Positions 38,568-41,682 of a DNA stretch of 64,000 nt are shown piece after piece; position 1 is the first letter of the stretch, and each line of letters begins with the position of its first letter. This DNA comes from Microbacterium abyssi. Its GTDB lineage: Bacteria > Actinomycetota > Actinomycetes > Actinomycetales > Microbacteriaceae. The notes below the pieces were generated by a model. It was not told the DNA's origin. It made no database searches and was given only the letters and a program-made list of their open reading frames with translations. The stretch covers positions 992,001 through 1,056,000 of the forward strand of contig NZ_CP063815.1 of NCBI RefSeq assembly GCF_015277895.1, written 5' to 3'. The translations under genes were made by a program, and so were the position numbers.

Positions 38568-39062
38568 TCAGGAGTCGAAGCTCAGGCTGAGCTTGCGCAG
38601 CAGCGACGCCATCCGATCGCGGTCGGACCGCGACAGCGCCTTGAGCAGCTCGGCCTCGACATCGACGAGGCGGGTGATGGCGGCATCCACGCGGATGCGG
38701 CCATCGTCGGTGAGCGTGACCAGCACGCTGCGCCGGTCGCCCGGGTCGGCCTCTCGTCGCACGAAGCGGCGACCGACGAGACGGTCGATGCGATTGGTCA
38801 TGGTGCCGCTCGAGACGAGAGTCTGCTGCAGCAGCTGCTTGGGGGAGAGCTGGAACGGTGCGCCCGCGCGGCGGAGGGCCGAGAGCACGTCCCACTCCCA
38901 GGCCTCGATGTCGCTGCGCCGGAACACGTCGCGCCGTGCGCGATCGAGGTGGCGGGAGAGCCGGTCCATGCGGGAGAGGACCTCGAGGGGAGAGAAATCG
39001 AGATCGGGACGCTGGGTGTGCCATGCGCCGACGATCCGGTCGACCTCATCTGCCTCGTTCAT
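38568..39062 (-). CDS. MarR-family transcriptional regulator
   Basis: 164 residues. The winged-helix core is recognisable: LLQQTLVSSGTMTNRIDRLVGRRFVRREADPGDRRSVLVTLTDDGR, with the DxRxxxxxLT wing. It is a dimeric repressor that usually responds to small aromatic ligands. GATAAT (39069-39074, minus strand) is 6 nt before the ATG; the intervening GGAGGG abuts the ATG and is too close to be a normal ribosome site. It ends 13 bp before the pseudouridine synthase start. Confidence 0.88.
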   Translation of the reverse strand: MNEADEVDRIVGAWHTQRPDLDFSPLEVLSRMDRLSRHLDRARRDVFRRSDIEAWEWDVLSALRRAGAPFQLSPKQLLQQTLVSSGTMTNRIDRLVGRRFVRREADPGDRRSVLVTLTDDGRIRVDAAITRLVDVEAELLKALSRSDRDRMASLLRKLSLSFDS

Positions 39063-39131
39063 CCCTCCATTATCCGATGCGGGCGCATCGGCCGGGCATG
39101 GCAGACTTGTCTGGCAGCCCGCGGGCTGTGG

Positions 39132-39203
39132 TCCGCCGTGGTGTAATGGCAGCACGACAGCCTTTGGAGCTGTTAGGTCCAGGTTCGAGTCCTGGCGGCG
39201 GAG
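39132..39203 (+). tRNA. tRNA-Gln (anticodon UUG)
   Basis: Acceptor arms TCCGCCG (39132-39138) and CGGCGGA (39196-39202) pair; discriminator G is 39203. The anticodon stem ACAGC/GCTGT encloses the loop CTTTGGA, giving UUG. GGTTCGAGTCC forms the T loop. CCA is not encoded. The glmU ATG starts at 39205, one base after the tRNA, so both are probably on one transcript. Confidence 0.95.
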
Positions 39204-39204
39204 C

Positions 39205-40638
39205 ATGACGGAGAACACGCTCGCCATCGTCGTCCTCGCGGCAGGACAGGGCACTCGCATGAAGTCGCGCCTGCCCAAGGTGCTGCATCCGATCGCCGGG
39301 CGCCCGCTCGTCGGGCACGTGCTGACCACGGCATCCCATCTCGGCGCGGAGCACATCGAGGTCGTCGTGCGTCACGAGCGCGACCGCGTGGTCGAGATGC
39401 TCAGCCAGAGTCACCCCGACGCCGTGATCGTCGACCAGGACGACATCCCCGGCACGGGGCGCGCCGTCCAGGTCGCGATCGACGCGCTGCCGGCGGATTT
39501 CACCGGCGACGTGCTGGTGCTGTCCGGCGATGTCCCGCTGCTCGAGGCCGGCACGCTGCAGGCTCTCGTCGACGCGCACCGGTCCGCCGCGGCATCCGCC
39601 ACTGTTCTCAGCGCCCTGCTCGACGATCCGACCGGGTACGGACGCGTCATCCGTGACGACAGCGGCACAGTCGCGCGCATCGTCGAGCAGAAGGATGCCT
39701 CCGCGGACGAGGCTGCCGTCACCGAGATCAACGCCGGCGTCTACGTCTTCCGCGCGGCATCCCTGCGCACGTTCCTCACGAAGATCGACCAGGACAACGC
39801 CCAGGGCGAGCTGTACCTGACCGACGTGATCGGCCTGCTGCGCGAGGCGCAGGAGACCGTCGCCGCCGAGATCGCCGCCGACACCGCAGCGACCTTCGGC
39901 GTCAACGATCGCGTACAGCTCGCCGAGGCCGGTCGCGTGCTGAACGACCGCATCGTCCGGCGCTGGCAGCGCGAGGGCGTCACCGTCGTCGACCCGGCGA
40001 CCACCTGGATCGACGACGACGCCAAGCTCGCCCCTGACGTGACCCTCATGCCGAACACGTACATCGCCGGAGCCACGGTCGTCGAGTCCGGCGCCGTGAT
40101 CGGTCCCGACACATCGCTCGTCGACTGCGAGGTCGGAGAGGATGCCGTCATCCGCCGTTCCGACGCGACGCTCGCCGTCATCGGCGCCGGCGCGAACGTC
40201 GGCCCGTTCGCATACGTCCGGCCCGGCACCGTCCTCGGCGAGAAGGGCAAGATCGGCACCTTCGTCGAGACGAAGAACTCGCAGATCGGCGCCGGGAGCA
40301 AGGTTCCGCACCTGTCGTACATCGGCGACACGACGATCGGCGAGCGCGTGAATCTCGGCGCCGGCGCCATCACCGCGAACTACGACGACATCGCCAAGCA
40401 CCGCACCGAGATCGGCGACGAGGTGCACACCGGCTCGCACAACGTCTTCGTGGCGCCGGTTAGGATTGGTGACGGTGCGAAGACCGGAGCAGGAGCGGTC
40501 GTCCGCAAGGACGTTCCCGCAGGTGCTCTGGCCTTGAGTGTCGCCCCTCAGCGCAATGTCGAGGGGTGGGTCGAGAAGAATCGGGCCGGCACGGGGGCCG
40601 CTGAGGCGGCCGACCGGGCCAGCAGAACCGAAAAGTAA
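39205..40638 (+). CDS. glmU: Bifunctional N-acetylglucosamine-1-phosphate uridyltransferase / glucosamine-1-phosphate acetyltransferase
   Basis: 477 residues. The uridyltransferase motif LAAGQGTRMKSRLPKVLHP (K25) opens the protein; VLSGDVPLL follows; left-handed beta-helix repeats from about residue 265 with NYDDIAKHRTEIGD and GSHNVFVAPVRIGDGAKTG form the acetyltransferase. It makes UDP-GlcNAc for peptidoglycan. The ATG is the only start that keeps the N-terminal motif and lies one base past tRNA-Gln, so no separate leader exists. It precedes prs as in many actinobacteria. Confidence 0.96.
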   Translation: MTENTLAIVVLAAGQGTRMKSRLPKVLHPIAGRPLVGHVLTTASHLGAEHIEVVVRHERDRVVEMLSQSHPDAVIVDQDDIPGTGRAVQVAIDALPADFTGDVLVLSGDVPLLEAGTLQALVDAHRSAAASATVLSALLDDPTGYGRVIRDDSGTVARIVEQKDASADEAAVTEINAGVYVFRAASLRTFLTKIDQDNAQGELYLTDVIGLLREAQETVAAEIAADTAATFGVNDRVQLAEAGRVLNDRIVRRWQREGVTVVDPATTWIDDDAKLAPDVTLMPNTYIAGATVVESGAVIGPDTSLVDCEVGEDAVIRRSDATLAVIGAGANVGPFAYVRPGTVLGEKGKIGTFVETKNSQIGAGSKVPHLSYIGDTTIGERVNLGAGAITANYDDIAKHRTEIGDEVHTGSHNVFVAPVRIGDGAKTGAGAVVRKDVPAGALALSVAPQRNVEGWVEKNRAGTGAAEAADRASRTEK

Positions 40639-40647
40639 AGGCGGGTC

Positions 40648-41682
40648 ATGGGCCAGAAGAAGAAGACCGTTGCACTGGATCGGGACAACGGTGTGGCCCC
40701 CGGCCTCATCGCGAAGACGAAGAAGCGCCTCGTCGTCGCGGGGGGCCGCTCTCATCCTGAGCTGACCCACGCGGTAGCCGACGTCCTCGGCACGCAGATG
40801 GTTCCCGTCGAGCACCGCACCTTCGCCTCCGGCGAGATCTACTCCCGGTTCGAGGTGTCGATCCGCGGCTGCGACCTCTTCCTGATCCAGACCTTCGGCG
40901 AGCCGGTCAACGAGTGGCTCATGGAGACGCTCATCATGATCGATGCGGCCAAGCGCGCATCGGCCAAGCGCATCACGGTCGTCGCCCCGTACTACCCGTA
41001 CTCCCGACAGGACAAGAAGGGCCGCGGCCGTGAGCCGATCAGCGCCCGCCTGGTCGCCGACCTGCTCAAGACCGCCGGCGCCGACCGCGTCATGAGCGTC
41101 GACCTCCACGCCGCACAGATCCAGGGCTTCTTCGACGGTCCAGTCGACCACCTGTTCGCCAAGCCGGTGCTTCTCGAGCACTTCCGCGCGAACCTCACGG
41201 AGGAAGACCGTGAGACGCTCACGATCGTCTCTCCCGACATGGGCCGGGTGCGAGTCGCAGACACGTGGTCCGACAGCCTGAGCGCCCCGCTCGCGATCAT
41301 CCACAAGCGCCGCGACCCCAAGGTCGCCAACCAGGTTTCCGTCCACGAGATCGTCGGTGCGGTCGAGGGGCGCACCTGCCTCCTCGTCGACGACATGATC
41401 GACACCGGCGGCACGATCGTCAAGGCCGCGCAGGCGCTGAAGGCCAACGGCGCGCGCCGCGTCATCGTCGCCGCCACGCACGCGATCTTCAGCGATCCCG
41501 CCAGCGAGCGCCTGCAGGATGCCGCGATCGATGAGGTCGTCGTCACCGACACCATCCCGCTCACCCAGTCGCGCCGGTGGGAGAACCTCACGGTCCTCCC
41601 CATCGCTCCGCTGCTGGCCCGCGCGATCCACGAGGTCTTCGAGGACGGGTCGGTGACGAGCATGTTCGGCGGCGACGCCTGA
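40648..41682 (+). CDS. prs: Ribose-phosphate pyrophosphokinase
   Basis: 344 residues, with about 25 N-terminal residues (KKKTVALDRDNGVAPG...) more than the usual 315-320, typical of the Microbacteriaceae form. SVDLHAAQIQGFF, the catalytic RRDPK, and the PRPP loop LLVDDMIDTGGTI are present. It makes PRPP for purines, pyrimidines, His and Trp. It starts 9 nt after glmU with AAAGG as a ribosome site, so it is in the same operon. Confidence 0.95.
   Translation: MGQKKKTVALDRDNGVAPGLIAKTKKRLVVAGGRSHPELTHAVADVLGTQMVPVEHRTFASGEIYSRFEVSIRGCDLFLIQTFGEPVNEWLMETLIMIDAAKRASAKRITVVAPYYPYSRQDKKGRGREPISARLVADLLKTAGADRVMSVDLHAAQIQGFFDGPVDHLFAKPVLLEHFRANLTEEDRETLTIVSPDMGRVRVADTWSDSLSAPLAIIHKRRDPKVANQVSVHEIVGAVEGRTCLLVDDMIDTGGTIVKAAQALKANGARRVIVAATHAIFSDPASERLQDAAIDEVVVTDTIPLTQSRRWENLTVLPIAPLLARAIHEVFEDGSVTSMFGGDA

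Follow-up and report, generated by a model that had tools for sequence, protein, structure and literature searches.

A conserved tRNA-Gln(UUG)-glmU join in Microbacterium and its proposed role in leaderless expression of glmU

Mitochondrial transcripts are reportedly punctuated by tRNAs, a mode of expression associated with Ojala, Montoya and Attardi (1981). In E. coli, the tRNAs of thrU-tufB are co-transcribed in front of an mRNA. A related arrangement is reported for Thermococcus kodakarensis, where a tRNA-Lys lies inside the 159-nt 5′ UTR of TK0306 (PMC4247193). Leaderless mRNAs are common in actinomycetes: 264 of them are reported in S. coelicolor (Romero et al., PMC4681348), and in P. acnes 138 start codons coincide with a transcription start site or are no more than 10 nt away from one (Lin et al., PMC3848588). 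The latter report also mentions leaderless mRNAs made by MazF. Among the titles and abstract openings that we searched, with most subscription journals outside the search, no description of bacterial leaderless mRNAs made by tRNA processing was found.

We analyzed a window (the whole stretch of DNA under study, 64,000 nucleotides) from Microbacterium abyssi in which a tRNA-Gln(UUG) gene runs directly into glmU (Table 1). The original prediction had the tRNA discriminator at 39203 and the glmU ATG at 39205, and ARAGORN, Rfam, and the stem pairing all agree with this abutment. ARAGORN called tRNA-Gln(TTG) on the + strand and gave its 3′ end as 39204, while the Rfam model ends one base earlier (65.1 bits). 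The 5′-end TCCGCCG of the acceptor stem pairs with 39196-39202, followed by G39203, C39204, and the ATG. Position 74 of the tRNA gene is thus a C; because positions 75-76 are A and T, CCA is not encoded. This is the single tRNA with a UUG anticodon in the M. abyssi genome, which has one tRNA-Gln(CUG) besides. The open reading frame (ORF) from 39205 encodes a full GlmU (NF010932, 701 bits; cut-off, 611). From their 9-bp spacing, glmU and prs are probably co-transcribed. On the other side of the tRNA, a MarR-like regulator gene lies divergently at 38568-39062 (− strand); its best NCBIfam match, at 43 bits, is below the model cut-off.

It had also been claimed that no other start keeps the N-terminal motif of GlmU and that no ribosome site is available except bases of the acceptor stem, and both claims held. 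The next in-frame start downstream, at 39259, is already behind the LAAG motif, and the nearest one upstream, at 39016, is 5′ of both the tRNA and its promoter-like element. The sole purine-rich stretch before the glmU start is the GGAG of the acceptor stem, 1 nt from the AUG, a spacing that is too close for a Shine-Dalgarno (SD) site. As judged from the M. abyssi sequence, glmU has the marks of a leaderless gene, with neither a usable SD site nor an alternative start, and the tRNA gene abuts it directly with no room for a leader, as expected of tRNA punctuation.

Table 1. Positions of the features around the tRNA-Gln(UUG)-glmU join in the M. abyssi window
Feature	Position	Strand	Remarks
Extended -10 promoter element TGGCAGACT, probable	39099..39107	+	-10 = CAGACT, 39102-39107
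tRNA-Gln(UUG)	39132..39203	+	ARAGORN, Rfam RF00005; discriminator G39203
C74, first base of CCA end, encoded	39204..39204	+	Predicted cut between 39204 and 39205
glmU, 477 aa	39205..40638	+	Start codon immediately 3′ of C74
prs (ribose-phosphate diphosphokinase)	40648..41682	+	9 bp behind glmU stop

To follow the junction among relatives, we used the best 80 of the 146 stretches found in a scan of named genomes. The start codon was exactly one base after the tRNA-Gln discriminator (a state termed “fused” here) in 67 of these 80, including all loci labelled Microbacterium. Their start codons were 64 ATG and 3 GTG, the latter (L029, L034, and L047) each with an ATG as the very next codon, which could be the actual start. 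Two fused loci, L010 and L016, are at contig ends, and L010 has only the 3′ part of the tRNA. Among the other relatives, 3 (Leifsonia) had a spacer of 46-57 nt with GGGAG before the ATG, and 10 had no tRNA-Gln within 250 nt. The 67 fused loci have 10 to 20 codons between the start and the LAAG motif; an inner in-frame start codon before the motif is present in 10 of them and in none of the other 57. Since both the promoter-tRNA distance and the GlmU N-terminus vary, indels are tolerated on both sides of the join and not at the join itself. By this comparison of sequences, the tRNA-Gln/glmU join is not a product of chance. The original prediction had asked for such a junction alignment, and the join proved to be strictly kept in Microbacterium, in all labelled loci fetched. 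It had further named a variable spacer with normal ribosome sites as an observation that would speak against it; this does occur in other genera but in no Microbacterium locus fetched. A record named Planococcus sp. APC 4015 (L066) carries a tRNA-Gln-glmU of the Microbacterium type and falls among Microbacterium on the GlmU tree; this record is probably mislabelled or a mixed assembly.

We looked for promoter-like elements with GGCAGACT and variants of it, chosen by eye. Such an element was present in 88 of 89 pooled loci and was positioned 22-40 nt 5′ of the tRNA in 65 of the 67 fused loci, the other two being interrupted by contig ends. Of the 20 fused glmU loci of a family-wide pattern scan (see below), 19 had an element-tRNA distance of 21-43 nt, and L119 had one of 83 nt. 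A built-in sigma-70 scan gave no + strand promoter in the tRNA-glmU region, the conserved CAGACT element being outside its consensus. Judging from the element, the tRNA-glmU(-prs) transcript would probably start near 39114.

The 40 nt before the glmU start were scored for an SD-like site versus a -10-like box at the position expected for a leaderless start. Among 87 fused loci, which are not independent (the family scan includes the M. abyssi genome, and the GlmU rows of L030 and L131 are identical), 10, M. abyssi not being one of them, had an SD-like site within the tRNA at 4-11 nt from the start, and none had a -10-like box at the leaderless position. The tRNAs of the fused loci of genera g2, g34, and g57 contain GGAGG. 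Spaced loci had an SD-like site in 40 of 51 cases and the box in 3 of 51; taking the start preceded by the SD-like site, their leaders are from about 15 nt up. Some spaced loci have a nearer in-frame GTG or TTG (in L161, a TTG at position 75), which we regarded as unused. Where the tRNA is absent (loci within L073-L210), a box such as AGAAT was present just 5′ of the ATG, at the leaderless position, in 21 of 36 loci, and an SD-like site was present in 14 of 36. These counts imply that the glmU start in Microbacteriaceae is served by an ordinary ribosome site, by a leaderless-looking promoter of its own, or by the tRNA join.

Within the Microbacteriaceae, the join pattern matched 24 of 299 genomes and 9 of 85 genera, including 6 of 6 genomes in the genus of M. 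abyssi. Twenty of the 24 pattern loci were fused glmU (17 ATG and 3 GTG), from genera g1, g2, g34, g57, and g80. At the remaining joins we found an aldo/keto reductase ORF (L122; 247 bits in Pfam), a 110-codon ORF (L124), a locus that runs off its contig (L129), and a three-codon ORF at C-ATG followed by a spaced glmU with a strong SD-like site (L123, the same place as L177, in genome G288). We classed the last as spaced; its three-codon ORF may be a leader ORF that is itself leaderless, or a remnant of a former fused join. A sample from most other genera, with one locus per genus from 80 genomes searched (G015 and G038 were partial matches), gave 78 glmU loci, of which 49 were spaced, 27 lacked a tRNA-Gln within 250 nt, and 2 lacked the motif. 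The zero count of fused loci among these 78 is largely by construction, because the five pattern-bearing genomes G000, G001, G033, G056, and G079 were left out. On a GlmU tree of 86 rows, which does not separate gains from losses and in which L298 is a long branch, the fused state needs seven changes, at least five of them forced by well-supported branches.

Outside the family, we read 30 glmU loci of 47 genomes, 3 of which were without the motif. The fetched stretch had tRNA-Gln(UUG) 5′ of glmU in 22 of the 27 loci with the motif, and all 22 of these tRNA genes encode C74. Fused glmU was found in two f29 genomes (L397 and L404) and in the f28 genome G511 (L365), and so is present in five Microbacteriaceae genera and two other families. 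When the class was searched for any tRNA-like T arm with C-ATG directly behind it, 78 of 246 genomes matched. We read 68 distinct loci of the 107 matches listed, choosing representatives for repeats; 44 were confirmed tRNAs, about one-third of which were then followed only by short or noncoding-looking ORFs. The control pattern C-N-ATG matched more genomes (134 of 246). Thirty of its loci were read, of which 21 were confirmed tRNAs, many with an encoded CCA and then TG, and 4 (L259, L261, L266, and L282) had coding-like ORFs. Because encoded CCA followed by TG inflates C-N-ATG, raw pattern counts fail to separate the two classes. The raw comparison was dropped as a test, as the contrast was visible only once the ORFs were read. 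In two of the control loci, L266 and L261, tRNA-Thr(TGT) precedes a gene for a YdcZ-type transporter, and the join (C-G-ATG or C-C-ATG) exceeds the usual one by one base.

Since the C-ATG and C-N-ATG samples were not drawn alike, we relied more on complete genomes. Among 125 tRNA genes in the M. abyssi genome (G000), G438, and G511, 8 had a recognisable gene starting exactly after C74. By eye, none of the 125 had a convincing gene starting 1 to ~20 nt after it, where short or unverified ORFs do occur. Of 17 fused ORFs, 14 had Pfam matches and NCBIfam added DLW-39 for L301, for a total of 15; the ORFs of L124 and L302 had no match in Pfam or NCBIfam. Besides glmU, 12 tRNA-gene pairs whose proteins match a Pfam or NCBIfam family share the join. 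With C-AUG, these are Leu(CAA) with an ANTAR response regulator, Arg(TCT) with an RNase_T exonuclease, Ala(TGC) with a cyclophilin, Ala(GGC) with a short-chain dehydrogenase, Leu(GAG) with a phosphoribosyltransferase, Pro(GGG) with a CDP-alcohol phosphatidyltransferase, Asn(GTT) with an ACT protein, Leu(TAG) with a VTT protein, Ser(TGA) with an EamA transporter, Ile(GAT) with a DLW-39 protein, and Gln(TTG) with an aldo/keto reductase; Lys(TTT) is joined to an EamA transporter with GTG. The DLW-39 protein has 41 codons and is joined to tRNA-Ile(GAT) in both L301 and L325 (NF038356, 59.4 bits for L301). Genomes of family f28 (L256, L288-L296, L365, and L329), 1.3-1.5 Mb in size, have several joins each, 4 in G511 and 3 in G438; their genes starting directly 3′ of C74 include an ANTAR regulator, an exonuclease, a cyclophilin, a phosphoribosyltransferase, and glmU. 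The tRNA-C-start join is not special to cell-wall synthesis, and its use by unrelated genes elsewhere speaks for economy rather than for control specific to glmU.

All 44 tRNA genes of the M. abyssi genome encode C74, 17 of them C75 too, and 11 CCA. The corresponding numbers were 40 of 40, 13, and 12 in G438, for which ARAGORN gave 40 distinct of 41 tRNAs, and 40 of 41, 10, and 8 in G511. Pooled over these three genomes, C74 is encoded in 124 of 125 tRNA genes and CCA in 31. C74 was likewise present in 144 of 144 Microbacteriaceae tRNA-Gln loci (overlapping sets) and in 55 of 56 tRNAs of a phylum sample, 34 of which had full CCA. The totals for the three genomes suggest selection for C74 in tRNA genes that lack CCA, perhaps because the 3′ cut falls after C74.

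RNase Z was not recognised in the M. abyssi genome with the one model searched, TIGR02651 (best match, 16.3 bits; cut-off, 292.95), and we rejected it as the cutting enzyme for this genome. Full-length RNase Z-like matches of 245-282 bits, none over the cut-off, occurred in 7 of 40 picked genomes of the class. One of the seven, the fused genome G001 (g2), has a full-length RNase Z-like protein (246 bits); there the enzyme was not rejected and might cut after the discriminator, which counts against a cut after C74 in G001. The actinobacterial CCA-adding enzyme was found in 8 of 8 genomes tested.

Published cut sites bear on this point. For P. acnes, which is without an obvious tRNase Z, cuts inside CCA are reported to be always between the Cs, and other CCA-encoding tRNAs to be cut a few nt downstream; the authors suggest that CCA-less tRNAs might be substrates of this unknown enzyme as well, with tRNA-Gln(TTG) as an example (Lin et al., PMC3848588). 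For S. coelicolor, cuts between the Cs are likewise described in CCA-encoding tRNAs, and several CCA-less tRNAs are cut within a few nt of the 3′ end and not exactly after C74 (Romero et al., PMC4681348). The cuts between the Cs speak for a C74 cut in tRNA-Gln; that they were described in CCA-encoding tRNAs, and that other tRNAs of both species are cut at other places, counts against it. The original prediction had a cut after the discriminator, leaving an mRNA that begins C-AUG. Given that no RNase Z is recognisable, that C74 is encoded throughout the genome, and that cuts between Cs occur elsewhere, we find it more likely that the mRNA starts at the AUG itself. With a cut between C74 and N75, a start codon at position 75 would form the very 5′ end of the mRNA, and it is at this position that the start codons of the joins lie.

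Taken together, we believe that glmU of M. abyssi is probably expressed as a tRNA-punctuated, leaderless mRNA. In our model, the tRNA-Gln(UUG) promoter would give one tRNA-glmU precursor, with prs probably included. RNase P would trim the 5′ end of the tRNA. The 3′ cut would be made by an endonuclease that is probably not RNase Z and would most likely separate C74 from A39205. The tRNA would then be completed by the CCA-adding enzyme, and the other product would be a 5′-monophosphate mRNA beginning exactly at the glmU AUG and translated as leaderless, like other actinobacterial leaderless mRNAs. Expression of glmU would then track the transcription and 3′ processing of tRNA-Gln. The sequences show the join, its strict conservation and its recurrence; that a precursor exists, where and by which kind of nuclease it is cut, that the mRNA has a 5′ phosphate, and that the processed RNA is translated rather than the precursor, we infer. 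A 5′-monophosphate RNA should be open to 5′ attack, which counts against this model, as do the fused loci with an SD-like site inside the tRNA.

Those same 10 loci, in which the site is at a workable distance, would fit internal initiation at the AUG on the unprocessed precursor, with processing merely removing part of the mRNA. The precursor must exist briefly if the genes are co-transcribed. However, the purine stretch of M. abyssi is paired in the acceptor stem in addition to being 1 nt from the AUG, the SD-like sites of spaced relatives are mostly outside the tRNA, and a start on the precursor would make an exact join unnecessary. We consider this explanation unlikely. A separate promoter inside the tRNA gene, with transcripts starting at or just before the AUG, would make glmU leaderless by initiation and independent of processing. 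The original prediction had named a promoter start inside the tRNA, giving only a longer glmU leader, as something that would overturn it. The frequent box of the tRNA-less relatives suggests that glmU is commonly leaderless by its promoter there, and CAGGTT at 39180-39185 is a weak -10-like box; still, none of the 87 fused glmU loci has a -10-like box whose end is 4-10 nt 5′ of the start, nor does any of the 16 further fused ORFs checked, most of which involve other tRNAs and genes, and the feature that the joins share is the tRNA end. Thus, an inner promoter seems distinctly unlikely.

The join could also be a frozen accident, in which an ancestral deletion put the AUG beside the tRNA and common descent kept it there, with unremarkable expression. 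The 67 fused loci do come largely from one genus, and tRNA-Gln and glmU are old neighbors, as the loci of other families indicate. Neutral drift, however, should vary the spacer as it varies the neighboring distances, the GlmU tree holds several changes of state, and the join recurs in two other families and with unrelated genes; we regard such an accident as very unlikely.

On a broader version of the punctuation model we are evenly divided. It would be a general actinomycete route that evolved recurrently, in which an endonuclease other than RNase Z cuts 3′ of the encoded C74, so that any gene with its start codon at position 75 becomes leaderless under the tRNA promoter. Microbacterium glmU would be its best-conserved case, and the streamlined f28 genomes would carry several. 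If the punctuation model is true, free-living bacteria would share the tRNA punctuation of mitochondria, some leaderless mRNAs would form a class that escapes the mapping of triphosphate ends, and there would be a reason for C74 without CCA in these tRNA genes. It would also tie the synthesis of UDP-GlcNAc, and probably of PRPP, to transcription and maturation of tRNA-Gln. Such a tie may act as regulation, glutamine being used as well by GlmS, which precedes GlmM and GlmU in the pathway, or may merely save a promoter. The model makes two points testable: the identity of the enzyme that cuts between C74 and N75 in actinobacterial tRNAs, and whether leaderless mRNAs with a 5′ monophosphate are translated well.

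Compared with known systems, the proposed mode resembles mitochondrial tRNA punctuation, in which the excision of tRNAs leaves leaderless mRNAs whose 5′ ends coincide with the start codon or lie close to it. It would differ in acting on single genes of a bacterial chromosome, not on a whole polycistron, and in a cut that is probably after C74 of a CCA-less gene, where RNase Z is not recognised. With thrU-tufB and TK0306, it has in common a protein gene transcribed together with an upstream tRNA; there, a leader remains or the tRNA is within a long 5′ UTR, whereas zero or one leader base would remain before glmU. MazF, as mentioned in PMC3848588, is another endonuclease that removes a leader, but it is a stress toxin, and the proposed removal at glmU would be part of routine tRNA maturation. 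Finally, the actinobacterial leaderless mRNAs described in PMC4681348, PMC3848588, and PMC4633059 also begin at or within a few nt of an AUG or GUG without an SD site. Their 5′ ends are set by transcription start sites, whereas that of glmU, in our proposal, would be set by tRNA processing and carry a monophosphate.
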